From assembly GCA_016875405.1 (NCBI GenBank), contig VGRJ01000002.1, forward strand, positions 1 through 64,000: 64,000 nucleotides of DNA. Direction: 5' to 3'. The position numbers were made by a program, and so were the translations under genes. Below, one piece after another: positions 12,685 through 48,879 of the stretch. A model generated the notes under the pieces. It ran no database searches, had not been told where the DNA came from, and saw only the letters and a list, made by a program, of their open reading frames with translations. The number at the start of each line of letters is the position of its first letter. The first letter of the stretch is position 1. This stretch comes from Deltaproteobacteria bacterium (GTDB lineage: Bacteria > Myxococcota_A > Polyangia > Polyangiales > Polyangiaceae).

Positions 12685-15150
12685 TTAGTAAACCGACACC
12701 GCCGGGAGCGCGTCGCCCATCTCACCCAAGCCGTCGCCACGGCTCTGCGTGTCGCCAAGCCCAAGCTGCCCGGCCGCCGAGCCGCCCCAGCACTTGACCG
12801 CGCCGTTGTCGAGCAGCGCGCAGGCGTGCAGGAGGCCGACGGCGAGGCTCTTCGCGGTACGTCCGGTGCCGAGGTCGATGGGGAGGAGCGCGTCGGCCAT
12901 CTCACCGAGCGCGTCGCCGCGCGCCATCGTGTCGCCTTGGCCGAGCTGCCCGGCGGTGTTCCATCCCCAGCATTTCACCTGGTCTCCCTGCACGACCGCG
13001 CATGTGAAGTTGTTTCCGGCGAGGACCAGCTTCCCGTCGAGGCCGAGACCGAGGTCGATCGGCAAGAGGGAGTCGCCCATCTCGTTCGGCCCGTCGCCGC
13101 GTTCCGCGCTGTCGCCTTGCCCGAGCTGACCGAACGCGTTGCTGCCCCAGCACTTCACCGTGCCGTTGCTGAGGAGCGCACACGTGTGGTTGCCGCGCGC
13201 GACGATCGCCTTCGCGGTCTTGCCGACGCCGAGGCTGACGACCGGGAGCGCGTCGCCCATCTCGTTCGCGCCATCGCCGCGGTTCGCCTTGTCGCCGAGT
13301 CCGAGCTGGCCGTCGCCGTTGCCACCCCAACACTTCACCGTGTTGTCGTTCAAGATGGCGCACGAGTGAGCGTCGCCGAGGGCGAGCGCCTTCGCGGTCT
13401 TGCCGGTGCCTAGGGCAACGATGGGCAGCGCCGCCCCCATCTCGTTCGCGTTGTCGCCCCGCGCCGCCACGTCGCCGAGCCCGAGCTGACCGAACGCGTT
13501 GCTGCCCCAGCATTTGACGGTGTCGTCGTTCAGGATCGCGCAGCCGTGATTCTCGCCGGTCGCGAGGAGCTTGACGGTCTTGCCGAGCCCGAGGGCAAGG
13601 GCGAGGAGTTTGTCGCCCATCTCGTTCGCCTCGTCACCGCGCGTGGCGGTGTCGCCCTGCCCGAGCTGTCCGTTCGCGTTGCGCCCCCAACACTTGACGG
13701 AGTTGTCGGTGAGGAGCGCGCAGGTGTGCGAGCCGCCCGCCGCGATCGACGTCGCTCGCTTGCCCGTCCCGAGGTTCACCACCGGGAGGGCGCTGCCCAT
13801 CTCGTTCGGCCCGTCGCCGCGGTTCACGGCGTCGCCTAGGCCAAGCTGACCGGACAGGTTGTCGCCCCAACACTTGACGTTGCCGTCGTTAAGGAGCGCG
13901 CAGGTGTGACCCGACGCGGCGAGCTGAGTGACCTCGAGCGGGACGCAATCCCCGTTCTTGCAGCCAGAGCCCGCGCCGCAGACGTTGCCGCAGCCGCCGC
14001 AGTTCTGGACCGTGTCGAGCCGCGCCTCGCAGCCGTCGACCTTGTTGGCGTTGCAGTCGCCGAAGCTCGCGTTGCACTTGATGTCGCACATCGAGGCCGC
14101 GCAGAACGCCGTCGCGTTCGCCCCCCCGCAGATCTTCCCGCATTGACCGCAGTTCATCGGGTCGGTCGCGAGCTTCGTGCAGGTGTTGTTGCACTTGGTC
14201 GCGCCGCCCGCGCAGTCGAGGGAGCACGCGCCATTCGCGCAGACGAGGCCCGCCGCGCACCCCTTGCCGCACCCGCCGCAGTGCTTCGCGTCGTTCTTCG
14301 TGTTGACGCAAATGTCCTTCATGAAGGCGTCCTGGCACTTCGTCGACTCGCCGGCGCACGCGGTCACGCACTTGCCGTTTTGGCACGCCTGCCCGCTCGC
14401 GCACTTCGTGGAGCAGTCGCCGCAGAAGTCTGGGTCGAGCGACAGATCGGCGCAGACCTCCTGCGCGTCGAGGGTGAGGCACTTCGTCGATCCGCCTACG
14501 CACTCGATGACGCAGGCGCCCGCCTGGCAGCTCTGCCCCTCGGGGCATGCCACGCCGCAGCCGCCGCAGTGCTTCGCGTCGAGCTGCGTATCGACGCACA
14601 CGGCCACCATGTCGGCTGGCGCAGCGCCTCCGCCGCCGCCGGTCCCAGCGCCGCCCACGCCGCCCGCGCCGCCGGCGCCGCCGCCGGCGCCACCGGTCCC
14701 GGGCTCCGCCGGCTTCGGGACCATGCACACGGTCGTGCCGCCGAAGCACTTCACCGCGCACGCACCGAAGACGCACGACTCGTCGGCGCCGCACGCCTTG
14801 TTACAGCCGCCGCAGTGCGCGGGATCCACGTTGGTGTCGATGCAGCGGAGCCCCTGCCCGTCCACCTCGCACTTGGTCGTGCCGCCCGAGCACTGCACCG
14901 CGCAAACCGCCTCACTGCACACCTGCCCGGTCTTGCACTCGTTGCCGCACGCGCCGCAGTGCGCGGGGTCGTAGCGAACGTCGACGCACACCCCGTCGCA
15001 AGACTCTTGCCCCGACGGACACGGTGTCGCGCTCCCGCCGACGCCGACCGAAGACGAGGTCGTCCCGAAAAGGACGTCCGGCGAGCCGCAGGCCGCGAGC
15101 GAGGTGACGCCAAGCGCAACGGCCGAGAAGACGAGACGCCAGTCGAGCAT
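12685..15150 (-). CDS. Lipoprotein with Cys-rich modules and RCC1-like propeller
   Basis: An 821-aa exported lipoprotein. The signal peptide ends in the lipobox Leu-Ala-Ala-Cys (Cys ~24). Residues ~40-400 contain seven Cys-rich modules of the CGGCGxxC type (for example CGACGNEC and CGGCGKGC), common in myxobacterial surface proteins, interrupted by an Ala/Gly/Pro linker (about 155-185). Residues ~405-820 contain seven RCC1/BNR-like repeats of about 60 aa, each with (H)TCALLxDGxVKCWGxN and GQLGxGD. Seven blades imply a complete beta-propeller. The ATG at 15150 has GGAG 8 nt upstream; a GTG three codons earlier lies inside that ribosome site. Probably a surface adhesion or binding protein; the ligand is unknown. 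Confidence 0.85.
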   Translation of the reverse strand: MLDWRLVFSAVALGVTSLAACGSPDVLFGTTSSSVGVGGSATPCPSGQESCDGVCVDVRYDPAHCGACGNECKTGQVCSEAVCAVQCSGGTTKCEVDGQGLRCIDTNVDPAHCGGCNKACGADESCVFGACAVKCFGGTTVCMVPKPAEPGTGGAGGGAGGAGGVGGAGTGGGGGAAPADMVAVCVDTQLDAKHCGGCGVACPEGQSCQAGACVIECVGGSTKCLTLDAQEVCADLSLDPDFCGDCSTKCASGQACQNGKCVTACAGESTKCQDAFMKDICVNTKNDAKHCGGCGKGCAAGLVCANGACSLDCAGGATKCNNTCTKLATDPMNCGQCGKICGGANATAFCAASMCDIKCNASFGDCNANKVDGCEARLDTVQNCGGCGNVCGAGSGCKNGDCVPLEVTQLAASGHTCALLNDGNVKCWGDNLSGQLGLGDAVNRGDGPNEMGSALPVVNLGTGKRATSIAAGGSHTCALLTDNSVKCWGRNANGQLGQGDTATRGDEANEMGDKLLALALGLGKTVKLLATGENHGCAILNDDTVKCWGSNAFGQLGLGDVAARGDNANEMGAALPIVALGTGKTAKALALGDAHSCAILNDNTVKCWGGNGDGQLGLGDKANRGDGANEMGDALPVVSLGVGKTAKAIVARGNHTCALLSNGTVKCWGSNAFGQLGQGDSAERGDGPNEMGDSLLPIDLGLGLDGKLVLAGNNFTCAVVQGDQVKCWGWNTAGQLGQGDTMARGDALGEMADALLPIDLGTGRTAKSLAVGLLHACALLDNGAVKCWGGSAAGQLGLGDTQSRGDGLGEMGDALPAVSVY

Positions 15151-15246
15151 GAGAAGCACTCCAGTGGGGCGAAAGGCGAGTAAGTCGCCCCTTTCTCTCC
15201 TTCGATATCGGCCCTCCCGCGCAAGGTCAAGCGCCAGCGAGCGCCG

Positions 15247-15861
15247 TCAGGCTCGGGTATGGAGGTTCGCGGCGAGCACCGCCGCGGTGAAGCGCGTGCG
15301 CAGGTAGAAGCCCTTCGGGAGCGTCGACAGGATCAGGCCCTCGTCGTCGATCGCTCGGCGTCGTGACCGCGCGTTCGCCGCCTTCGGCCTCACCTGCAAG
15401 TAGCGCCCGACGCGCGCCGAGAGGGACTCAACCCCGCCCGCCCCGATGATCCCCCCGAGCTCCTCCCAGTCGTCGCGCAGCGCCATCTCTTCGAGGCTCG
15501 ACGGAGACCAGAGGAAAGGCGCACCGACACGACGCATCGGCACGGCGATGGCGGGGTCCCCCTCGAACGGCACCCATAGAACCCGGGCGAGCTTGCGTCT
15601 CACGCGCGACGTCTCCCAAGGCACGGCCTCGAGCTCGCCAAGCGGCACCGTGCACACGAAGGTGGACTCGACGGGCCGGCCGTCCTCGGTCACCGGGAGG
15701 CTCTTCAGCTCGACGCCGAGGGCCGTGAAGTCGGGCTCGTCGCGGCTCGAAGCGTCTGCACCGAGCAAGCGCTCGAAGAGCTGACCAACCCAGCCCTTGT
15801 GCCGACGAAGGTCGTGCGGCGGCTCGATGTCCCGCGCGCGGGCGAGCTCTCCCAACGTCAC
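15247..15861 (-). CDS. mutH: DNA mismatch repair endonuclease MutH
   Basis: A sequence-specific (GATC) nicking endonuclease of the MutH/Sau3AI family. The 204 residues from GTG 15861 align end to end with Escherichia coli MutH: KGWVGQLFERLLGADA, then the catalytic D-x6-E-x-K (DFTALGVELK), WETSRVRRKLARVLW and RPKAANA near the C-terminus. The catalytic Asp, Glu and Lys are all retained. Similarity also extends upstream of the GTG for ~24 codons (LLLECASALAGVTLGEL resembles E. coli LLAQAQQLSGYTLGEL). The only start-like codons there are a CTG at 15933 and rarer ones, just after the sdhB stop and in the same frame. No dam, mutS or mutL is in the window. MutH is mainly known from Dam-positive gammaproteobacteria, so transfer is likely. 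Confidence 0.9.
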   Translation of the reverse strand: MTLGELARARDIEPPHDLRRHKGWVGQLFERLLGADASSRDEPDFTALGVELKSLPVTEDGRPVESTFVCTVPLGELEAVPWETSRVRRKLARVLWVPFEGDPAIAVPMRRVGAPFLWSPSSLEEMALRDDWEELGGIIGAGGVESLSARVGRYLQVRPKAANARSRRRAIDDEGLILSTLPKGFYLRTRFTAAVLAANLHTRA

Positions 15862-35821: not shown

Positions 35822-37249
35822 TCACTGTTTCTGGAGCGAGAGGAAGCCGCCGACGAGGTTCAGGATGCGGCGAAGCTGCACGTTCGTGACGACGACCTCT
35901 CCCACGATCTTCCCGTCGCGCGCCTCGAAGGTGGGCTTGTCGAACCAGGGCGCGAGGATCGGCGGATCGCGCACCTCCTCGATGGCCTCGGCCAGCTCGC
36001 GCGACGTCGCCTCGGCCGCAGCGGGGTTCGTATCGGTGGCCTCGAGCTTCAGACTGAGCGCCTCTCCGCTTGGCGTCGCCGTGAGGCGGAGCAGCGCGAT
36101 GCTCTTCGGAAATCGAAGGGGCGTGTGCATGAAGGCGCGCCAAGGAGTGCGCAAGGTGGCCGCGAAGAGCGTCGACCCCGACTTGTTGAAGCGCAAGTCC
36201 TTCGCCTGGCGCAACTGCTCTTCGGCTTCGGCCGGGGCGACGACGACGACGTGTTTGTCGGCCCGCAGCGACACCCGCTGCGCCCCACCTGCGCCGAGCA
36301 CGCCGAGCGGTGCCGGCGTCCGCGTGAGCCATTTTCCTGGGGGATCGCTCGCGGCCATCGCGGTCTCGATCGCGCGCTGCATATGACCGACGCCGACGTT
36401 GTAATCGACGACCGCGACGACGACGCGCGCGCTTTGCATATGCGGGCCGGTCAGCCATACATGATCAAAATCACGTAGCGCGTCGAGGTTCGTACCCCCG
36501 AGGAGCTCGCGCCACTGGGGGATCCTCGCGAGCAAATCGCCAAACAGCGGACCGAGCTCGTGCCGACGGACGACGTCGGTCGCGAGGTAGATCATCACGT
36601 TGGTGGCCTTCGCCTGCACCGCGCCTGGCTGTCCCGCCAGCTTCGTCGCATCTTCGATCGGCGCCGCGGAACGCCCCGCGGGAGTGGCGCTCGACGACGC
36701 GGAGGGTGCGGGCCCTGCGACCGCCTGAGCCGACGCGCTCGACGTAGGGGCCGGTGGCGCCGCCGACGCGCTCGCCGTCGCCGAAGCGCTCGCCAATCGC
36801 TCACGCTCGGCCTTGTCGCGTTTCTCACGCTCGGCCTTGTCGCGTTTCTCACGCTCGGCCTTGTCGCGCTTCTCACGCTCGGCCTTGTCGCGCTTCTCAA
36901 GCTCGGCCTTCTCACGCTCGGCCCTCTGGCGCAGCGCCGTCGCCTCGGCCTCCTCATCGACCTCCGGCTCGACGGGCTCGGGCGCCTGCTCGGCTTGCGG
37001 CGGAGGTGCCTCGTCCTCGAAGCCCATGTCGAGGTCGATGGGAACGACGACCTCCTCCGAGAGCGGCGTTGGAGCCTCCTCCATTCGCAAGAGCCCGCGC
37101 AACCACGGCGGCACGAGCGTCGGCGCGAGCGGCAGGTGCGCGAGCAACGCGACGGCGACCGCCACCCGAAACGCCCGACGAGGCGAGGCCGCGAGACGCC
37201 ACCACCCGTCGACTTTGAGCGCGTCCGGTGTGGACGCCCCGCCGCGCAC
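35822..37249 (-). CDS. Single-span protein with EKRDKAER repeats
   Basis: A 475-aa protein. A membrane helix (about residues 25-45, FRVAVAVALLAHLPLAPTLV) is followed by an acidic/Pro stretch and four ERKRDKA-type octapeptides (about residues 120-158) predicted to form a long charged helix, then an Ala/Ser/Pro linker (to ~195). The rest (about 200-475) is an alpha/beta domain with VMIYLATDVVRRHELGPLF and KHVVVVAPAEAEEQLRQ, of unknown family. The architecture (short cytoplasmic part, one helix, rigid spacer, globular domain) resembles TonB/TolA-like periplasm-spanning proteins, by layout only. The start is the GTG at 37249; the in-frame sequence further upstream overlaps the divergent promoter region. 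Confidence 0.6.
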   Translation of the reverse strand: MRGGASTPDALKVDGWWRLAASPRRAFRVAVAVALLAHLPLAPTLVPPWLRGLLRMEEAPTPLSEEVVVPIDLDMGFEDEAPPPQAEQAPEPVEPEVDEEAEATALRQRAEREKAELEKRDKAEREKRDKAEREKRDKAEREKRDKAERERLASASATASASAAPPAPTSSASAQAVAGPAPSASSSATPAGRSAAPIEDATKLAGQPGAVQAKATNVMIYLATDVVRRHELGPLFGDLLARIPQWRELLGGTNLDALRDFDHVWLTGPHMQSARVVVAVVDYNVGVGHMQRAIETAMAASDPPGKWLTRTPAPLGVLGAGGAQRVSLRADKHVVVVAPAEAEEQLRQAKDLRFNKSGSTLFAATLRTPWRAFMHTPLRFPKSIALLRLTATPSGEALSLKLEATDTNPAAAEATSRELAEAIEEVRDPPILAPWFDKPTFEARDGKIVGEVVVTNVQLRRILNLVGGFLSLQKQ

Positions 37250-37318
37250 ATGCGTCCCAGGCACCACAGCGGACCTTAGCACGAGGCCGAAGTGCGCGAA
37301 CCCAATGGCACTCCTGGC

Positions 37319-37334
37319 TGGCACGGGTTTGGCC
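37319..37334 (+). promoter_or_regulatory. Sigma-54-type promoter before the L,D-transpeptidase
   Basis: TGGCACGGGTTTGGCC has the invariant GG and GC separated by 10 bp (-24/-12) and a full TGGCAC -24 element; the -12 element is TGGC rather than TTGC. It lies 77 bp upstream of the ATG. Myxobacteria use sigma-54 and its activators heavily. No binding site for an activator was recognised. Confidence 0.4.
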
Positions 37335-37410
37335 AGAAACTGGCTCGGAGCGAACGATGCAGCTACTAGAACCAAGCCTTAGCAGGCAAGACGAAGAGGC
37401 AGGGGAATCG

Positions 37411-39498
37411 ATGGCGTCGAAGGAATCGAGCGGCAAGGGGAAGCCGTCGCCGGGAAAAAACCGGCGTGTGAGCTCCCTGAGCGGCATCGATCGCATCGAG
37501 CCGCCCGCGCGGAGCCCCATGCCCTCCGGCTCAGGCAACGCGCGACCGCGCGGAGGTGACGAGCCTCCCGGACCGCCCGCGCCCCGGGGCCGCGGAGCGG
37601 CCGCGACCGTCGTCGGCGCCCTCGTCGGCGTGATCGTCGGCGCCGGCGGGATCGGCGCAGTCTCCTGGGCGAGCGGCTGCGGTGAGCGTGCCGCGAACCA
37701 GGCAGCCGCGTCGGCGACCGCTTCGGCGACGGCGAGCCCCGAGCCCACCGTCGCGCCGACCGCGCTCGCCTCCGCCGAGGTGCCGCCGCCTCCCGACGAC
37801 GCAAACGAGCCCGAGGTCGCCGAGCCCGACGCCCCAAAGGCCCCCGTCGAGGAGAAGCCTTGGTCGGGACCATGGCTCGGCGCAATGGCCCAGGTCACGC
37901 CGGTGTATCCGACGGCGCGCTTCTCGAAGAACCGGCTCGGCTACTTGCGTCGTGGCGCGAAGGTCGCGGTCAACGACAAGCCGATCCACACCGACTCGTG
38001 CAAGCAGGGCTTTTACGCGCTCGTCGATGGCGGCTACGTTTGCGGCAAGTACGCGACCACCAACGTCGAAGACAGCCGCGTGAAGCTCGGCGTGAAGCCC
38101 GCCGATCTCGAGGGCATGATGCCCTACAAGTACGCGTACAACACGGCGCACGGCACCCCGCTCTACGCCCAGGTCCCGTCGCGGGACGACATGCAGCGCT
38201 ACGAGCCCTACCTCAAGGAGCCCGACAAGAAGAAAGGCAAAGACGACACCTCGGACAAGGCAGACAAGGCCGAGAGCAGCGACAAAGCCGACAAGAGCGA
38301 CAGGGCCACGAAGGGCGACCACGGAGCGAAGGGCTCGAAGAGCGCGAAGGCCGAGAAGGCCGAGAAGGCCGAGAAGGCCGAGAAGGCCGAGAAGGCCGAG
38401 AAGGCCGAGAAGGCCGAGAAACCCGACAAGGTGATCGAGAAGGCCGATCAGCCGCGGCCCGACGACCCCGACGCGGTCGACGCTCCGAGCGCGCCGGCGA
38501 AGCCGACGGTGAGCGCGTCCGCGGTGCCCATCGAGGTCCCCGTCCCGTCGGCGTCTCCGATAGAGGCGGCGCCCGAAGAGGACAAGCCATGGTGGCAGCG
38601 CGACACCAAGGACAAGCCCCTCGACATCAAGCTAAGCGACCTCGAAGAGAGCGACGGCACGCTCGCGAAGCGCATGGTGAAGGGCTTCTTCGTCGCGATC
38701 GATCGCGGCTTCTCGTGGAACAACCGGCTCTGGTGGAAGACCACCGATGGGCTCATCGCGCCGAGCGACCGGATGGTGATCCCGAAGACGCCCGACCTGC
38801 GGGGCTTCGACATGCGCGCCGGCGTGAAGCAGGTCGCGTTCGTCCGCGTGAGCCAGGCATCGCGCTACGAACGCCGGAAGGACGGCAAGAGCTTCTCGAA
38901 GAAGGGAAAGGCCGTGCGCTTCACGTCCTTCGCGCTGACCGGTAACACCGAGCTCGAAGCGAAGCAGCGCTACTTCGAGACGTCGGAGGGCTTCTGGCTG
39001 CGTGAGTCCGACATCGCGGTGACCGAGCCCGGGCCACGTCCCGATCGCATCGGGACCGACGAGAAGTGGGTCGACGTGAACCTGACGCGCAAGACCCTCG
39101 TCGCGATGCTGGGCGACAAGCCGATGTACGCGGCGCTCGTCTCGCCCGGAAAATCCTCGCCAAACAAGGACAAGGATCACCGCACGAAGACGGGCATGTA
39201 CCGCATCCGCGAGAAGCACGTCGCGACCACGATGGACGGCGACGGCACCTCGGGTGGCGACCTCCCCTACAGCATCATGGATGTGCCGTACGTCGAGTAC
39301 TACGACGGCTCGTACGCGCTCCACGCGGCGTTCTGGCACAACAACTTCGGACGCGAGCAGAGCCACGGGTGCGTCAACCTCGCGCCGGCCGACGCGAAGT
39401 GGCTGTTCTTCTGGACCGAGCCTGCGCTGCCGAAGGGCTGGCACGGCGTGTGGTCGAGCGAGAAGCGCCCCGGCAGCTGGGTCGTCATTCACGAGTAG
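37411..39498 (+). CDS. L,D-transpeptidase (YkuD) with AEK-repeat region
   Basis: A 695-aa membrane-anchored peptidoglycan crosslinking enzyme. One transmembrane helix (about residues 66-86, TVVGALVGVIVGAGGIGAVS) follows a basic cytoplasmic N-terminus. A Pro/Glu-rich region precedes a domain (~150-260, GPWLGAMAQVTPVYPTAR) and a Lys/Glu/Asp-rich tract (~270-355) with eight AEK triplets. Another domain (~400-560) precedes the YkuD catalytic part, where the signature is HAAFWHNNFGREQSHGCVNL (catalytic Cys ~654). The ATG at 37411 has AGGGGA 4 nt upstream. Divergent from the KRDKAE gene. The combined architecture is unusual for this enzyme family. Confidence 0.85.
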   Translation: MASKESSGKGKPSPGKNRRVSSLSGIDRIEPPARSPMPSGSGNARPRGGDEPPGPPAPRGRGAAATVVGALVGVIVGAGGIGAVSWASGCGERAANQAAASATASATASPEPTVAPTALASAEVPPPPDDANEPEVAEPDAPKAPVEEKPWSGPWLGAMAQVTPVYPTARFSKNRLGYLRRGAKVAVNDKPIHTDSCKQGFYALVDGGYVCGKYATTNVEDSRVKLGVKPADLEGMMPYKYAYNTAHGTPLYAQVPSRDDMQRYEPYLKEPDKKKGKDDTSDKADKAESSDKADKSDRATKGDHGAKGSKSAKAEKAEKAEKAEKAEKAEKAEKAEKPDKVIEKADQPRPDDPDAVDAPSAPAKPTVSASAVPIEVPVPSASPIEAAPEEDKPWWQRDTKDKPLDIKLSDLEESDGTLAKRMVKGFFVAIDRGFSWNNRLWWKTTDGLIAPSDRMVIPKTPDLRGFDMRAGVKQVAFVRVSQASRYERRKDGKSFSKKGKAVRFTSFALTGNTELEAKQRYFETSEGFWLRESDIAVTEPGPRPDRIGTDEKWVDVNLTRKTLVAMLGDKPMYAALVSPGKSSPNKDKDHRTKTGMYRIREKHVATTMDGDGTSGGDLPYSIMDVPYVEYYDGSYALHAAFWHNNFGREQSHGCVNLAPADAKWLFFWTEPALPKGWHGVWSSEKRPGSWVVIHE
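38350..38421 (+). repeat. Eight 9-bp repeats encoding AEK
   Basis: GCCGAGAAG is repeated eight times without change. It encodes a charged helix linker in the L,D-transpeptidase; a slippage-prone, in-frame tract. Confidence 0.9.
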
Positions 39499-42302: not shown

Positions 42303-43124
42303 ATGCGCGACGTGACCGCGCGCGGCGTCCGCATGCGCGTCATCGAGGCGGGCGAGGGCCAGGGGCCGCCCCTCGTCCTCGTGCACGGATTCCTCTCGAC
42401 GCACCTCGAGTTTGACGAGCTGATCGAGCGCCTCGCCCACCATTTCCACGTGATCGTGCCCGATCTCCCTGGCTCGGGGGACAGCGAGAAGCCGAGCCCG
42501 GCGCGCTATGTCTACGGCGTCGAGACCTTCGCAGAGACCGTCGCGGACCTCATCTCTGCGTACGGGATCGGCCGCGCGTTCGTGGCCGGACACGGGCTCG
42601 GCGGAGCGGTCGGCATCACCCTCGCGGCGCTGCACCCCGAGCTCGTGAACCGGCTCGTCTTGGTCGCGCCGCTCTGCTACCCGTTCGCGGCGCGCGCGAT
42701 CTTCCGCGGGCCGCTCATGCCGATCGTCGGCAGCGTCGTCTTCAAGCAGTTCTTTGGGTGGCGTGCGTTCCGCACCTACTTCCGCGAGTGGGTGTATCCG
42801 CCCGAGTTTCCTCTGCCGGAGCAGATCGCCGCCAACTTCGAGGCCTTCAACAGCCCCTCCGGTCGCGAGAGCGCCTACGCTGTTCTCGAGAGCATGCTCG
42901 ACACGCGCCCGACCGTCGCGCGCATCACGCGAATCCGGAGGCCGACGCTTGTCACCTGGGGCCGTGAGGACCGCGTCTTTCCCGCTCACCACGCCCTCAA
43001 GCTCGCGCGCGAGATCCCGGGCGCGCGTCTCGAGTTGTTCGACGCCGGGCACGCGCCGCACGTCGAACGCCCGGACGACTTCGCGCTGGTGCTTCGACAA
43101 TTCTGCGAAGGCAGGCGCGGATGA
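42303..43124 (+). CDS. Alpha/beta hydrolase
   Basis: A 273-aa hydrolase of the epoxide-hydrolase/haloalkane-type alpha/beta fold. The oxyanion motif VLVHGFLSTHLEF, the strand VIVPDLPGSGDSEKP, the nucleophile elbow GHGLGG (where most serine hydrolases have GxSxG, here His), the acid in TWGREDRVFP and the catalytic His in DAGHAPHVERP are visible. The nucleophile position should be checked, because the elbow lacks Ser at the central position. ATG 42303 is the first good start; an earlier GTG at 42231 would add 24 residues. It overlaps the permease gene by 4 nt (ATGA). Confidence 0.82.
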   Translation: MRDVTARGVRMRVIEAGEGQGPPLVLVHGFLSTHLEFDELIERLAHHFHVIVPDLPGSGDSEKPSPARYVYGVETFAETVADLISAYGIGRAFVAGHGLGGAVGITLAALHPELVNRLVLVAPLCYPFAARAIFRGPLMPIVGSVVFKQFFGWRAFRTYFREWVYPPEFPLPEQIAANFEAFNSPSGRESAYAVLESMLDTRPTVARITRIRRPTLVTWGREDRVFPAHHALKLAREIPGARLELFDAGHAPHVERPDDFALVLRQFCEGRRG

Positions 43125-45640
43125 CGAGGGCCGCGCTCGCGTGGCAGCGGTTCCGCGGGAATCGCCCCGCGATGTTCGGCCTCGTGCTTCTCGTCGCGGT
43201 CGTGGCCTTCGCGGTCTTCGTGCCGCTCGCGTGGCCTCACGCCCCGAACACGAGCGACTTCTCTCTGCCGAGCAGCGACGTCGGCGGGCCTCCGCCGCCG
43301 AGCTTCGCTCACCCACTCGGCGCCGACCCGATCTTTCGCGACCTCGTCGCGCGCCTCGCCGCGGGAGCCCAGCTCTCGCTCGGGCTTGCGGCGGTCGCGA
43401 CCCTGCTCGCCGTAACCCTCGGCACCGCCGTCGGGCTCGGGGCCGCGGTCACCGCCGGGACGCGCCTCGCGCTCATCGACCGCATGGTACTCCGCGCGAT
43501 CGACGTCGCCCTCGCCTTCCCCTACCTGCTGCTCGTCACCGCCGTGGGCGTCTCGCTCGACCGCGCGGGCCCGCTCGCGATCGCGGTGACGCTCGGCGCG
43601 ACAGGCTGGGTGGGCCTCGCGAGGCTCGTCCGTGAGAAGGCGGTCTCGCTCTTCGACTCCGAGCATGTGCTCGCGGCGCGCGCGCTCGGGGTCGCGACCC
43701 GGCTCGTCGTGTGGCGCCACGTCTTGCCGGGTCTCCGCGGACTCTTGCTCGTTACGGGGTCTCAATCGCTCGGGCAGATGGTGCTCGCGGAGGCCGTGCT
43801 CGGCTACCTCACCGTCGGCGTCGGCCCGCCACGCTCGAGCCTCGGTCGCATGCTTCAGGAGTCAGAGCACTACCTCGGCGCGCAGCCGATGCTCGTCGCC
43901 GCGCCGGCGCTGGTGATCGTGCTCACCGTGCTCGGGATCGCGCGCGTATCCGATGGACTCGGGGAGGTCCTCGAGCAGCGCGCGCGCTCGTCACCCGCGA
44001 GGTTGCCCGTCGACGCGCTGGTCCTCGGTGGCCTGTTGACTGCGATGCTGGGGCTCTCCGAGCCCGAGCGCCTCGAAGCCCCGCTCGCGACCTCGCCCGT
44101 CACGGACGACACGCTCCGGCTCGCGACCGCCGCGACCCCGGCCGCGCTCGATCCGGCGCTCGCATTCGATGGTGCGACGCTCGCAGTAGACGAGCTCGTC
44201 CACGCGCGGCTCGTCGGTCGAAACGCTCTGGGCGAGCTACGGCCAGAACTCGCAGAGCGCTTCCTCGTCGAGGCCGAAGGCACGCGCGTCCGGGTCGTGT
44301 TGCGCCGCGACCTTCGCTTCCACGACGGCGAGCCGCTCGTCGCCGCCGACGTGAAGCGCTCGATCGAACGCGCGCTGCACCCGAGCACCCCAAGCCCGGG
44401 AGCGAGCTACTTCGAGGCGCTCGTAGGGTTTGAAGCCTATCGCAGTGGCCGAGCGCGCGAGCTCACCGGGATCGAGGTGGTGTCGGAGCTCGAGGTGCTG
44501 TTCAAGCTCGCGAGACGAGACGCGTCCTTCCCAGCCCTGCTCGGCCTCGGCTTCGCGTCGCCGGTGTGCCGCAGCGCGAGCGCCGTCGCGGAGCCTTCGT
44601 CGCCGGCGACGTGCGGCGCAGGTCCGTACCGTCTCGTCGAGCACGATGAAGAGCGGATCGTGCTCGAGCGCTTCGATGCGTTCGTTGGCGAGCGCCGCGG
44701 CCGCGCTCGTAGGCTCGAGTGGCTCGTCGGCGTCCCGGTGAGGACGCAGCGCTATCGCTTCGAGCGCGGGGAGCTCGACCTCCTCACCGAGGCGAGCGGC
44801 ATCGACACGCAGCGCTTCGTCGCCGACCCGCGCTGGTCGTCGCAGGTGACCTGGCTCGAGCAACCCGTCGTCGACGGCATCTTCCTGAACACCCGCGTCG
44901 TGCCCTTCGACGACCCGCACGTCCGTCGCGCCGTCGCGCTCGCCGTCGACGCGTCGGTGCTGCCCCGCCTGAGGCCGAGCCTCACGGCCGCGACGCGGAT
45001 CCTGCCGCCGGGCATCGCTCGACCGACGAACGGTCCGGAACGTGTCACGGACCTCGCCGCGGCGCTTGAGGAGATGCGTATCGCCGGGCACCCGTTCGAT
45101 CCGGAGAGCGGCGTGGGTGGGTATCCGTACACGATCGACTACATCACGGTGCCCTCGAGCCTCGACCAGGCCGTCGCCGAGGTGTACCAGCAGCAGCTCG
45201 CTCGGATCGGGCTGCGCATCCACATCCGCCTTCTCAGCTTCGCGAGCTACCTCGCCGAGCTCTCGCGCCCCGGCGCTTGCGCGATGGGCTGGCGCGCCTG
45301 GCAGCCAGACTTCCCCGATCCCTCCGCGGTGATCGATCCGCTCCTCACCTCCGCTGCGCTCGCGAGCGAGCCGACGCAGAACGTCTCGTTCTATGCAAAC
45401 CCAAAGGTCGACGCGCTCGTCGCCGCCGCGCGCGAGGAGACGGAGCCGTCTCGGCGCCTCGCTCACTACGCCGATGCCGAGAGGCTCCTCGCCGATGATG
45501 CGCCGTGGGTGCCCGTCTACGCGAACCGAAGCCTCGTCGTCAGGCAGCGATGGATCGCGAGCGCACCCGCCGGGAGCGACGGGCGACTCGACCTCACCGC
45601 GATCGGAGCATCGAAGTCCGCAGAGGCTCGCGCGCCGTGA
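43121..45640 (+). CDS. Fused DppC-type permease and peptide-binding protein
   Basis: An 839-aa fusion. Residues ~1-290 are an ABC permease of the DppC/OppC type: N-terminal helix, a periplasmic stretch ending HPLGADPIFRDLVARLAAG, five further helices and the EAA loop (LGVATRLVVWRHVLPGLRG). Residues ~305-325 form a further membrane helix (PVDALVLGGLLTAMLGLSEP). The rest (about 335-839) is an OppA/DppA-type substrate-binding domain: LRLATAATPAALDPALAFDG, VVLRRDLRFHDGEPLVAADV and, late, DDAPWVPVYANRSLVVRQRW. The binding domain is thus tethered to the permease. It is translationally coupled to the hydrolase before it and the DppB-type permease after it. No ATPase subunits are in the window. Confidence 0.88.
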   Translation: MTRAALAWQRFRGNRPAMFGLVLLVAVVAFAVFVPLAWPHAPNTSDFSLPSSDVGGPPPPSFAHPLGADPIFRDLVARLAAGAQLSLGLAAVATLLAVTLGTAVGLGAAVTAGTRLALIDRMVLRAIDVALAFPYLLLVTAVGVSLDRAGPLAIAVTLGATGWVGLARLVREKAVSLFDSEHVLAARALGVATRLVVWRHVLPGLRGLLLVTGSQSLGQMVLAEAVLGYLTVGVGPPRSSLGRMLQESEHYLGAQPMLVAAPALVIVLTVLGIARVSDGLGEVLEQRARSSPARLPVDALVLGGLLTAMLGLSEPERLEAPLATSPVTDDTLRLATAATPAALDPALAFDGATLAVDELVHARLVGRNALGELRPELAERFLVEAEGTRVRVVLRRDLRFHDGEPLVAADVKRSIERALHPSTPSPGASYFEALVGFEAYRSGRARELTGIEVVSELEVLFKLARRDASFPALLGLGFASPVCRSASAVAEPSSPATCGAGPYRLVEHDEERIVLERFDAFVGERRGRARRLEWLVGVPVRTQRYRFERGELDLLTEASGIDTQRFVADPRWSSQVTWLEQPVVDGIFLNTRVVPFDDPHVRRAVALAVDASVLPRLRPSLTAATRILPPGIARPTNGPERVTDLAAALEEMRIAGHPFDPESGVGGYPYTIDYITVPSSLDQAVAEVYQQQLARIGLRIHIRLLSFASYLAELSRPGACAMGWRAWQPDFPDPSAVIDPLLTSAALASEPTQNVSFYANPKVDALVAAAREETEPSRRLAHYADAERLLADDAPWVPVYANRSLVVRQRWIASAPAGSDGRLDLTAIGASKSAEARAP

Positions 45641-46629
45641 AGCCGCTCCTCGCCTTTCTACTGCGTCGACTCGTGTGGTCGCTCACCCTCGTCGTCGGCG
45701 TGGGAAGCCTCGCGTTCTTCGTCACGCGAGCCCTACCGGGCGACCCCGCGCGGCTCATCGTCGGACCACGGGCGAGCGCAGCCGACGTCGAGCGCGCGCG
45801 CGTCCTCCATGGACTCGACCGACCGCTACCGATCCAGTTCGTACGCTATTGGCAGCGGCTCGTGCACCACCCATCAAGCGCGGGCGAGCACAGGAGCTGC
45901 AAGCCGCTCGGACCGATGCACCTCGACCTCGGTACGAGCCACCGGCACCAGAAGAGCGTGGTCGCCGTCCTCGGAGCCCGCGCACCGCGAACCCTCGAGC
46001 TCGCGCTCGCCACGACGCTGGTACAGCTCGTCGTCGGACTCGGGCTCGCGACGCTCGCCGCTCGGCGTCGCGGCAGCGTCATCGACCAAGTCGCAACCGC
46101 GAGCTCGCTCCTCGCGGTCAGCACGCCGACGTTCGTGCTCGGGGTGCTCTTGCAGTACGTCCTCGCGTATCGCCTCGGATGGCTGCCGCTCGACGGCGGT
46201 GGCAGCGACCGCCGGGCGCTCGTCCTGCCAGCGCTGACGCTCGGCCTCTATGGCGCTGCCTTCGTGGTAAGGCTCGCGCGCGAGGAGCTCGGGGCCGCGC
46301 TCGAGAGCGACTACGCCAGCGCTGCAGCGGCCCGCGGAGCGAGCCCTCTCCGCGTGCTCTTCGTCCACGGCTGGAGGAACGCCCTCGGAGCTATGCTGCC
46401 GCTCTTGCTCCTCGAGCTCGGAGCGCTCGTCGGCGGCGCCGTCGTCACCGAGAAGCTCTTCCGCTGGCCGGGGCTCGGGTCGCTCACGGTCGACGCCGTT
46501 CTCTACCGGGACGCGCCGATCGTGTTCGGCGTCGTGATGGTATCGGCTGCGGGCATCGCGGCGGCGTCGTTCGCCCTCGACGTGCTCCGCGTCGCGCTCG
46601 ACCCGAGGCTGCGTCGTCGCGCGACCTGA
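45637..46629 (+). CDS. DppB-type ABC peptide transporter permease
   Basis: A 330-aa integral membrane permease of the DppB/OppB type. It has the usual N-terminal helix (RLVWSLTLVVGVGSLAFFVTR), the conserved ALPGDPARLIVG, about six helices, and the EAA loop (AAARGASPLRVLFVHGWRNAL) with GGAVVTEKLFRWPGLG. It partners the fused permease. The GTG start is fixed by the GTGA overlap with the preceding stop. The loop after helix 1 (HHPSSAGEHRSCKPLG) is longer and polar compared with typical family members. Confidence 0.9.
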   Translation: MKPLLAFLLRRLVWSLTLVVGVGSLAFFVTRALPGDPARLIVGPRASAADVERARVLHGLDRPLPIQFVRYWQRLVHHPSSAGEHRSCKPLGPMHLDLGTSHRHQKSVVAVLGARAPRTLELALATTLVQLVVGLGLATLAARRRGSVIDQVATASSLLAVSTPTFVLGVLLQYVLAYRLGWLPLDGGGSDRRALVLPALTLGLYGAAFVVRLAREELGAALESDYASAAAARGASPLRVLFVHGWRNALGAMLPLLLLELGALVGGAVVTEKLFRWPGLGSLTVDAVLYRDAPIVFGVVMVSAAGIAAASFALDVLRVALDPRLRRRAT

Positions 46630-46650: not shown

Positions 46651-48879
46651 TCAGCCCTTCTTCTTTTTCTTCGCGACCGGCTTCTTGGGGCTCGGACAAT
46701 AGCCCTTGTACTGCCCTTTCTTGGCGTTCGCCGCGCAGGCCTCGCGAGCCTTGGACGCGTCCGCCGCCTTGCCGATGCTGTCGTAGGCGGTGAAGAGCGC
46801 GAAGTAGCCGTCGGCGTTCTCGGGGTCCTTCTTCACGGCGGCCTTCGCGAAGCGGATCGCCTCGGCGTAGTTGCCGACGTCGAGCTTCTTCATCGCGGCC
46901 TTCAAGGGATCCGGGACGTCGGGCAGATCGCCCTCTCCGTCCGCGAGCGTCGGCGCGGCCGACGGCTCGGGGCTCGCTTCGCTCGACGCGAGCGCGGAGG
47001 CCGACGCCGCAGGCTCGGCAGACGACGAGCTCGTCGGAGCCGCGGAGGCTGGCGCGTTCGTGAGAGCGGTCCCCGACGAGCGACTCGTCGGCGTCGAGGC
47101 CGCGGGCCCGGGTGGCGTCGCACGGACGACCGTGGTCGCGGGAGGCGGCGGTGCATGGCCGCCACCGAGAGACGGGAGGAACGCGGCTGCGAGGCCCACG
47201 GCGCCTAGCAAACCCACGATCCCAAGGACCAGGCGACGGTTCTTGGAGCGCCGGTCGATCTGCTCGTCGGTGAGGTAGACCTCGCCGTCGTCATCGACGT
47301 CGTCCTGCGGCCGACCGTCTTCCGACATCGAGGGGGGAGGATGCGAGAAGAACACGTTGCTCACGCCGCTCTCGCTGAGCGAGTGCGTCGCCTCGTCTTC
47401 GCTCTCCTCGACGGCGACGGGACTCGGGGCCGACGAGTCGCGCGGCGGTGGCTCGCTCGACGTCACGCGCAGCGTCTCGTTGCGGGTCGTGATCGCGACC
47501 TCCGTCGGCGCGACCGGGGGTGCGAGCGGCGAAGGCGAGCGCAGCGAGTCGCGTTCGTCGAGCGCGCCGCCGTCCTTCCCGCGGCGCCCCGACATGCTGC
47601 GCTTGTTCTTGCGCGAAGCCTTCTTGCCACGACGGCTGTCGGGGACCTCCTCCTCGGAGGGCGTGGTGGTCGGTTCGGCCTCGACGGGCTGCGGCGCCTC
47701 GGCCTCGACGGGCTGCGGCGCCTCGGCCTCGTCGAATGGCGAGGCGCTCTCGGTCGTGGCCGACGCATCCGGCACCGGGGATGACTCGGGCTCCTCCTCG
47801 CGCGAGGCTGCTCCTAGGTCGACCGGCGGGGCCTCGGAACGGCCTAGCCGCACCGAGCCGCCTCCCGCCTCCGACGTCGGGCGCAACGTATGACCCGCCG
47901 CCGAGGCTCGGGACAGCGGCACCGGCTGCTCGACGAGATCCTCGGCGCCGATGAGGACACCTTCGTCGTGAAGCTGCATCAGCGTCCGAAGCGTCGAGCG
48001 GTCATCGAAGGGCGAATCGTCGACGATCTCGAAGAGAGTCCGCTTGCCGTCGAAGAGCCGCAGCAAGGCCTCGATCGAGTCGGGGACCTCGTCTGCGAGC
48101 GAGCGCAGCCGCGGAAAATCGACCTCGAGGATGGCCTCGAGCGGCGGCAACGACTCCGCAAGGACGTGGAACTCCTCGGCCTGCCGAAGCCCCGTCTCGA
48201 GCAGCGTCGACGTCTCGAGCTCGACGACCGCGGCCCGCGCGCTCGGCCCGAGCGTCACGTCGTACCGACCCTCTCGCCAGGTGAGCAGGCGGTAGACGGC
48301 CTCTTCGCCGCGGAGCCGTTTTAAGGTGGCGTCGACGATCTCTCCCCGACGAAAGTAGACGGTCGCGGTCGTCGAGTGGGCGCGAAACACGGCCGTTCCG
48401 CTCTGACGACCCTTCGCGACCGACTCGAGCAAGTCGACGACCGGTAGCTCTTCGAGCGTGCCGCTCACGTTCCCCGAGGTCGCAGCCCCGCTGAGACGCT
48501 CGCGCGCTTGCTTCGCGAGCAGGACCCGAACCCGCGCAGACACTTCCTTCACGAAGACCGGCTTCGTCAGGAACTCCTCGATCCCGAGCCGAACGCCGCG
48601 CATGCGGGCCGCGCGCACATCGCCGTCGATCATCAGGACCGTCGGAATGTTCTGCCACTCGTCGTGCTCTTGCATGTGCTCGACGAGCTCGAACCCGTCG
48701 AGTCGAGGGAGCGAGGTCGCGCTCAGCACGAGGTCGAAGGCGCGCGACTCGAGCGCCACGAGGGCGGCCTTCCCGTCCTCGGCCGTGGTCACGGCGTACC
48801 CGTCACCCTCGAGGCTGGCACGGACCAGACGAAGCTGTTTCGGGTCGCTCTCGACGAGCAGGATCTGCTTGGTGCTCAC
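46651..48879 (-). CDS. Pseudo-receiver / PATAN (DUF4388) / TPR-tail protein
   Basis: A 742-aa protein. Residues 1-120 have a response-regulator receiver fold (ILLVESDPKQLRLVRASLEG...EEFLTKPVF), but the phospho-acceptor Asp is Ala (LVLSATSLPRLDG) and one of the acidic pair is Ser, so it cannot be phosphorylated in the usual way. Residues ~140-260 match a DUF4388/PATAN domain (GTLEELPVVDLLESVAKGRQSGTAVF, with YFRRGEIVDATL). A second, similar segment follows to about 330. Then come a long Pro/Ser/Glu/Ala-rich linker, a membrane helix (RRLVLGIVGLLGAVGLAAAF, ~570-590) and a C-terminal TPR-like end (AIRFAKAAVKKDPENADGYF). GTG start at 48879. Likely a membrane-anchored signalling scaffold. Confidence 0.78.
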   Translation of the reverse strand: MSTKQILLVESDPKQLRLVRASLEGDGYAVTTAEDGKAALVALESRAFDLVLSATSLPRLDGFELVEHMQEHDEWQNIPTVLMIDGDVRAARMRGVRLGIEEFLTKPVFVKEVSARVRVLLAKQARERLSGAATSGNVSGTLEELPVVDLLESVAKGRQSGTAVFRAHSTTATVYFRRGEIVDATLKRLRGEEAVYRLLTWREGRYDVTLGPSARAAVVELETSTLLETGLRQAEEFHVLAESLPPLEAILEVDFPRLRSLADEVPDSIEALLRLFDGKRTLFEIVDDSPFDDRSTLRTLMQLHDEGVLIGAEDLVEQPVPLSRASAAGHTLRPTSEAGGGSVRLGRSEAPPVDLGAASREEEPESSPVPDASATTESASPFDEAEAPQPVEAEAPQPVEAEPTTTPSEEEVPDSRRGKKASRKNKRSMSGRRGKDGGALDERDSLRSPSPLAPPVAPTEVAITTRNETLRVTSSEPPPRDSSAPSPVAVEESEDEATHSLSESGVSNVFFSHPPPSMSEDGRPQDDVDDDGEVYLTDEQIDRRSKNRRLVLGIVGLLGAVGLAAAFLPSLGGGHAPPPPATTVVRATPPGPAASTPTSRSSGTALTNAPASAAPTSSSSAEPAASASALASSEASPEPSAAPTLADGEGDLPDVPDPLKAAMKKLDVGNYAEAIRFAKAAVKKDPENADGYFALFTAYDSIGKAADASKAREACAANAKKGQYKGYCPSPKKPVAKKKKKG

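Follow-up and report, generated by a model that had tools for sequence, protein, structure and literature searches.

The genome analysed here probably encodes a peptide/nickel-family ABC importer in which the substrate-binding protein forms the C-terminal domain of the C-type permease, with a DppD/DppF-type ATPase pair as its motor. The fused gene is the second of a three-gene cassette at 42303-46629 on the forward strand of the window, as we call the whole 64,000-nt stretch of DNA under analysis. The cassette begins with a gene (42303..43124, +) for a 273-aa protein of the alpha/beta-hydrolase fold (Pfam Abhydrolase_1, 5.5e-35; also compared in an alignment of 49 cassette homologues), continues with the 839-aa fusion (43121..45640, +), and ends with a 330-aa permease partner of the DppB/OppB type (45637..46629, +; BPD_transp_1, 1.2e-32; BPD_transp_1_N, 3.5e-13). 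Adjacent genes overlap by 4 nt each, at an ATGA (43121-43124) and at a GTGA (45637-45640) within which the B-type gene starts with GTG. A preliminary description of this DNA had claimed just this order and these overlaps together with the absence of local ATPases, and both points agree with what we found, there being no ATPase gene within the cassette.

The same description had proposed a fusion of a permease with an OppA-type protein across 839 aa, joined by an extra helix, and the anatomy of the protein bears this out. Pfam recognizes OppC_N (residues 5-47, 1.3e-12), BPD_transp_1 (residues 106-289, 3.6e-19), and SBP_bac_5 (residues 372-745, 2.5e-50) within a single frame. The permease half (residues 5-289; 43133..43987, +) retains the coupling-helix region in the alignment, as does the B-type partner. 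In a simple hydropathy scan, as distinct from a topology prediction, the permease part shows six peaks, and an additional one at residues 295-313 (44003..44059, +) is preceded by basic residues. This anchor helix occupies the place at which the separate binding proteins of split relatives carry their lipoprotein signal peptide. Behind it lies the binding domain (about residues 327-812; 44099..45556, +), which belongs to SBP_bac_5 / cluster C by Pfam and by its solved relatives (8upi, 3m8u, and 1dpp). Codon-position GC in the linker (0.73/0.54/0.90) is the same as in the flanking coding parts. The fusion scores under all NCBIfam equivalog cut-offs, and an AlphaFold model built from a shallow alignment of 17 usable sequences adds little (mean pLDDT 57.6, below 50 over the anchor).

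We searched 377 genomes of the phylum and then 108 genomes of Polyangiaceae. A full-length fusion in a single open frame occurs in 26 of the 108 Polyangiaceae genomes, spread over ten genera and including the present one. Identity to the protein described here is 58% in a genome of the same genus and 41-52% in the 24 others. Another family of the same order also has the fusion, in G325, at 35% identity. Three further Polyangiaceae loci are incomplete or different, two being cut by contig ends (G120 and G438) and one being split (G406). This recurrence in independent genomes at 41-58% identity, each time in one open frame, led us to reject an artefact, whether a frame error, a missing stop, or the chance openness of a high-GC frame. 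The fusion is an old and retained trait of one Polyangiaceae clade. The preliminary description had regarded common occurrence of the same fusion as evidence against its reading, and here the outcome is divided. Within the clade the fusion is conserved. Two other phyla were sampled, that of G452 by way of a Methylobacterium locus (398 genomes) and that of G451 by way of a Halanaerobiales locus (299 genomes), and among the matches listed no stop-free one spanned both halves. In that two-phylum search weak matches fell outside the E-value limit, and the rows that did reach across both halves contain stop codons. The best 40 of 3006 plasmid records match as separate genes where annotated, and none of the best 60 PDB matches is a chain covering both halves. 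In total, about 1,200 genomes were sampled for the fusion.

Split relatives indicate how such a protein may have formed. Other Polyangiales mostly have the same cassette in the order hydrolase, C, A, B or C, A, B, with the permease gene (C) and the binding-protein gene (A) as neighbors, and the split-form cassettes inspected contain no ATPase genes either. In these relatives A follows or overlaps C and lies mostly in another frame (+1 relative to C in 25 of 30, +2 in 4 of 30), so that losing a stop codon would not by itself have produced the fusion. In the split locus of G406 (L100), C and A share a frame with one stop between them; this locus falls outside the fused clade and is not its sister. 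In a tree of 57 concatenated C+A sequences, built with a quick method, the 26 fused Polyangiaceae sequences form a single clade (SH-aLRT 100) embedded in split forms. The fused sequence of G325 lies elsewhere, its neighbor being a split form whose binding protein possesses a membrane helix but not the cysteine. By this tree the fusion arose twice, two changes being the fewest that it permits.

The lipid anchor separates the two forms sharply. A cysteine stands at the lipobox position in 28 of 30 split binding proteins vs. none of the 27 fused sequences, as counted by reading the junction sequences; a strict regular expression gave 21 split and 2 fused hits, both of the latter in mid-helix. The anchor helix exceeds the hydropathy threshold in 26 of the 27 fused sequences. 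By these sequence comparisons, a lipid-anchored receptor has been turned into a part of the channel, its signal peptide retained as an extra helix and its anchor cysteine lost. Two unfused cassette binding proteins (L080 and L081, in G374 and G177) also lack the lipobox cysteine, have a long hydrophobic helix, and are probably membrane-anchored; L081 adjoins the independently fused G325 in the tree. Taken together, fused and split cassettes let one trace how a lipid anchor gave way to a membrane anchor, and this in turn to a fusion.

An origin from a signal peptide also raises the prospect that the chain is made as one and then cut behind the anchor helix, by signal peptidase or another protease, to release a free binding protein, in which case the fusion would merely secure co-translation. 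Small residues do follow the helix in several species (e.g., LSGGS, LSGAS). We nonetheless consider cleavage unlikely, because the cysteine required for lipoprotein release is absent from all 27 fused sequences, although that argument does not extend to type I signal peptidase, and because both the stop codon of C and the start codon of A have been removed and kept so across 10 genera. An internal start that would additionally yield a free binding protein was rejected as well, as the fused genes have no common start codon and some have none in the junction.

In the tethered importer that we favor, which is of the DppBCDF/OppBCDF type apart from the position of its binding protein, topology follows from the permease. 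The C-terminal end of permease C in the peptide/nickel family is cytoplasmic. The former lipoprotein signal peptide, left uncleaved, would thus serve as an extra transmembrane helix that leads from this cytoplasmic end to the periplasm, and the binding domain is predicted to reside there permanently, over its own B/C channel. Since B and C differ and would pair as a heterodimer, each transporter would bear one tethered receptor, in keeping with the preliminary claim that a binding protein is fixed to each transporter. Held close at all times by the tether, a loaded receptor would dock on its own channel without diffusion, and other binding proteins would be at a disadvantage. The energy for import would come from ATP hydrolyzed by the DppD/DppF-type pair encoded elsewhere, possibly shared with a second permease pair.

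What the receptor binds can be narrowed to some extent. By sequence, the solved proteins nearest to the binding domain are a peptide binding protein (8upi), heme-binding protein A, the binding protein of a clavulanic-acid cluster, YliB, DppE, and DppA. In Escherichia coli DppA, D436 holds the amino group of the dipeptide (PMC12136057). Its counterpart in the fusion is Asp730 (45308..45310, +), and aspartate occupies this position in 57/57 C+A sequences, making a ligand with an amino group plausible. For the carboxylate-binding arginine of DppA (R383), the 57-sequence alignment has no clear counterpart, and "peptide" therefore stands as the name of the family and not as a demonstrated substrate.

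Having found no ATPase in the cassette, we turn to those in the rest of the genome. The fused protein is the only SBP_bac_5 protein of this genome, and there is likewise a single pair of oligo_HPY ATPases of the DppD/DppF type, on another contig (C20), whose Walker and signature motifs look intact on inspection by eye. The orphan DppD/DppF genes that the preliminary description proposed to look for are thereby located, with no related permease gene in the stretch read around them. A complement of one SBP_bac_5 protein and one oligo_HPY pair is also seen in G196, G325, and G417, the last being one complete 16-Mb contig, and in 20 further Polyangiales genomes the corresponding ATPase pair is again without permease genes nearby. 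By elimination, the orphan pair is the likely motor of the fused importer. Two findings weaken this assignment. The same genome has a second DppB/DppC-type pair without ATPases, and C-type genes like its own are present in the majority of the Polyangiaceae genomes tested. Orphan ATPases were also seen in G378, G036, G111, and G389, where no cassette was found. An exclusive pairing of orphan ATPases and cassette was accordingly rejected as too strong, and an ATPase pair serving both permease pairs would fit best. There is precedent for such an arrangement in MsmK, one ATPase shared by several importers (PMC4519317). The second pair itself lies on contig C130 (L045:6282-8752), adjoined by neither a binding protein nor ATPases, and in its 498-aa B-type protein roughly 200 residues are inserted between the first helix and the permease domain.

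The missing ATPase also invites the view that the fusion acts as a sensor, or is a dead transporter, and imports nothing, for none of the Polyangiales loci inspected encodes an ATPase within the cassette, and the orphan ATPases could serve the C130 permease pair. Against this stand the coupling-helix regions, retained in both permeases, and the amino-group aspartate, conserved in every one of the 57 sequences. Moreover, G325 and G056 (99% complete) keep the cassette and one oligo_HPY pair, with no close C130-type permease found in either, and MsmK illustrates that importers may draw on a common ATPase. We regard the loss of import as very unlikely.

The individual parts of the fused importer are ordinary and their combination is unusual. 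A permease of the OppC/DppC type (OppC_N with BPD_transp_1), an OppB/DppB partner, a cluster C SBP_bac_5 protein (here fused), and oligo_HPY D/F ATPases are all present in the genome, which are the hallmarks of peptide/nickel importers. The DppABCDF and OppABCDF systems of E. coli share the heterodimeric B/C permease with coupling helices, the cluster C protein with its amino-group aspartate, and the oligo_HPY D/F ATPases, but their binding protein is free in the periplasm and their five separate genes form one operon. In Mycobacterium tuberculosis DppABCD and OppABCD the binding protein stays bound to the translocator through the cycle (PMC12136057), yet it is a separate protein outside the permease chain. 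Chains that join receptor and permease are known from the glycine-betaine and amino-acid families (PMC11065425, PMC8025302, PMC11466899). Among these, OpuA (OpuABC) of Lactococcus lactis and GlnPQ have the binding domain C-terminal to the permease in one chain (PMC11065425, PMC8025302), and in OpuA a short linker, together with a hydrophobic anchoring sequence, connects channel and binding domain, much as in the fusion (PMC11065425). These transporters, described from Gram-positive bacteria, nevertheless belong to other families, and their permeases are homodimeric, which gives each transporter two or four binding sites. Their binding proteins are also of a different class from that of the fused importer, whose best-matching families are OppC/DppC and SBP_bac_5 and whose partner is a distinct B-type permease instead of a second copy of the same chain. 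By analogy, the fused importer may work like OpuA, but it is no member of the OpuA/GlnPQ type. In Bacillus subtilis, ArtRQP is predicted to combine binding protein and membrane subunit in one chain, an arrangement described as unique among the type I importers encoded there; ArtRQP lies outside the peptide/nickel family, and for Dpp, Opp, and App of this genome the binding proteins are listed as separate (PMC11466899). Our literature search, whose coverage mostly excluded subscription journals, found no description of a receptor-permease fusion in the peptide/nickel family. The gains and costs of tethering have been studied in OpuA and GlnPQ, which bear two or more receptors per transporter. 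A heterodimeric importer with a single receptor, together with close unfused relatives in Polyangiaceae, would provide a one-receptor case supplied by nature and a comparison of one cassette before and after fusion.

The first cassette gene calls for a different reading from the one initially given. The preliminary description had pointed to an unusual hydrolase elbow, GHGLGG, which is indeed present. Its peculiarity is a glycine at the nucleophile position, so that the G-x-Nu-x-G pattern of active serine hydrolases is lacking. The same description envisaged a system for uptake and processing, in which the hydrolase would cleave the imported substrate. This concerns the first gene only and would be compatible with the tethered importer, and the position of the gene at the head of the cassette, its overlap with the fusion gene, and its presence in nearly all Polyangiaceae cassettes lend it some appeal, as does the triad of which acid and histidine are mostly kept among the 49 cassette homologues. 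The nucleophile, however, is glycine or alanine in 45 of these 49 sequences (the present one included) and serine in just 4, which leaves a processing role highly improbable and the preliminary claim without its catalytic residue. The protein is probably co-expressed with the transporter and probably no working serine hydrolase; it is more likely to be a pseudoenzyme, or a subunit that serves some other function, than an enzyme that processes the substrate. Cassette hydrolases with a serine elbow were seen only at L099 and L101 (G448 and G449), L068, and L071, two of them within the fused clade.

A fuller picture would combine these strands into a one-receptor importer of the peptide family that evolved twice as the signal peptide of a lipoprotein came to serve as a transmembrane tether, shares stand-alone ATPases with the receptor-less pair bearing the B-type insert, and includes the nucleophile-less hydrolase as an accessory subunit. 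We offer this complete combination tentatively, as a possibility that may well fail in one or another of its parts.

Two further genes lie near the cassette. Upstream in the window, 37228-39498 (+) encodes a large protein with central KAE-type repeats and a C-terminal part that by eye resembles an L,D-transpeptidase (SHGCVNL). Convergent to the cassette, 46651-48879 (-) encodes an apparent receiver-domain protein that also has one membrane helix and a long stretch rich in Pro/Ser/Glu, again judged by eye. At the same-genus locus L032, a gene at 13513-15684 that follows the cassette resembles the latter in length and orientation.
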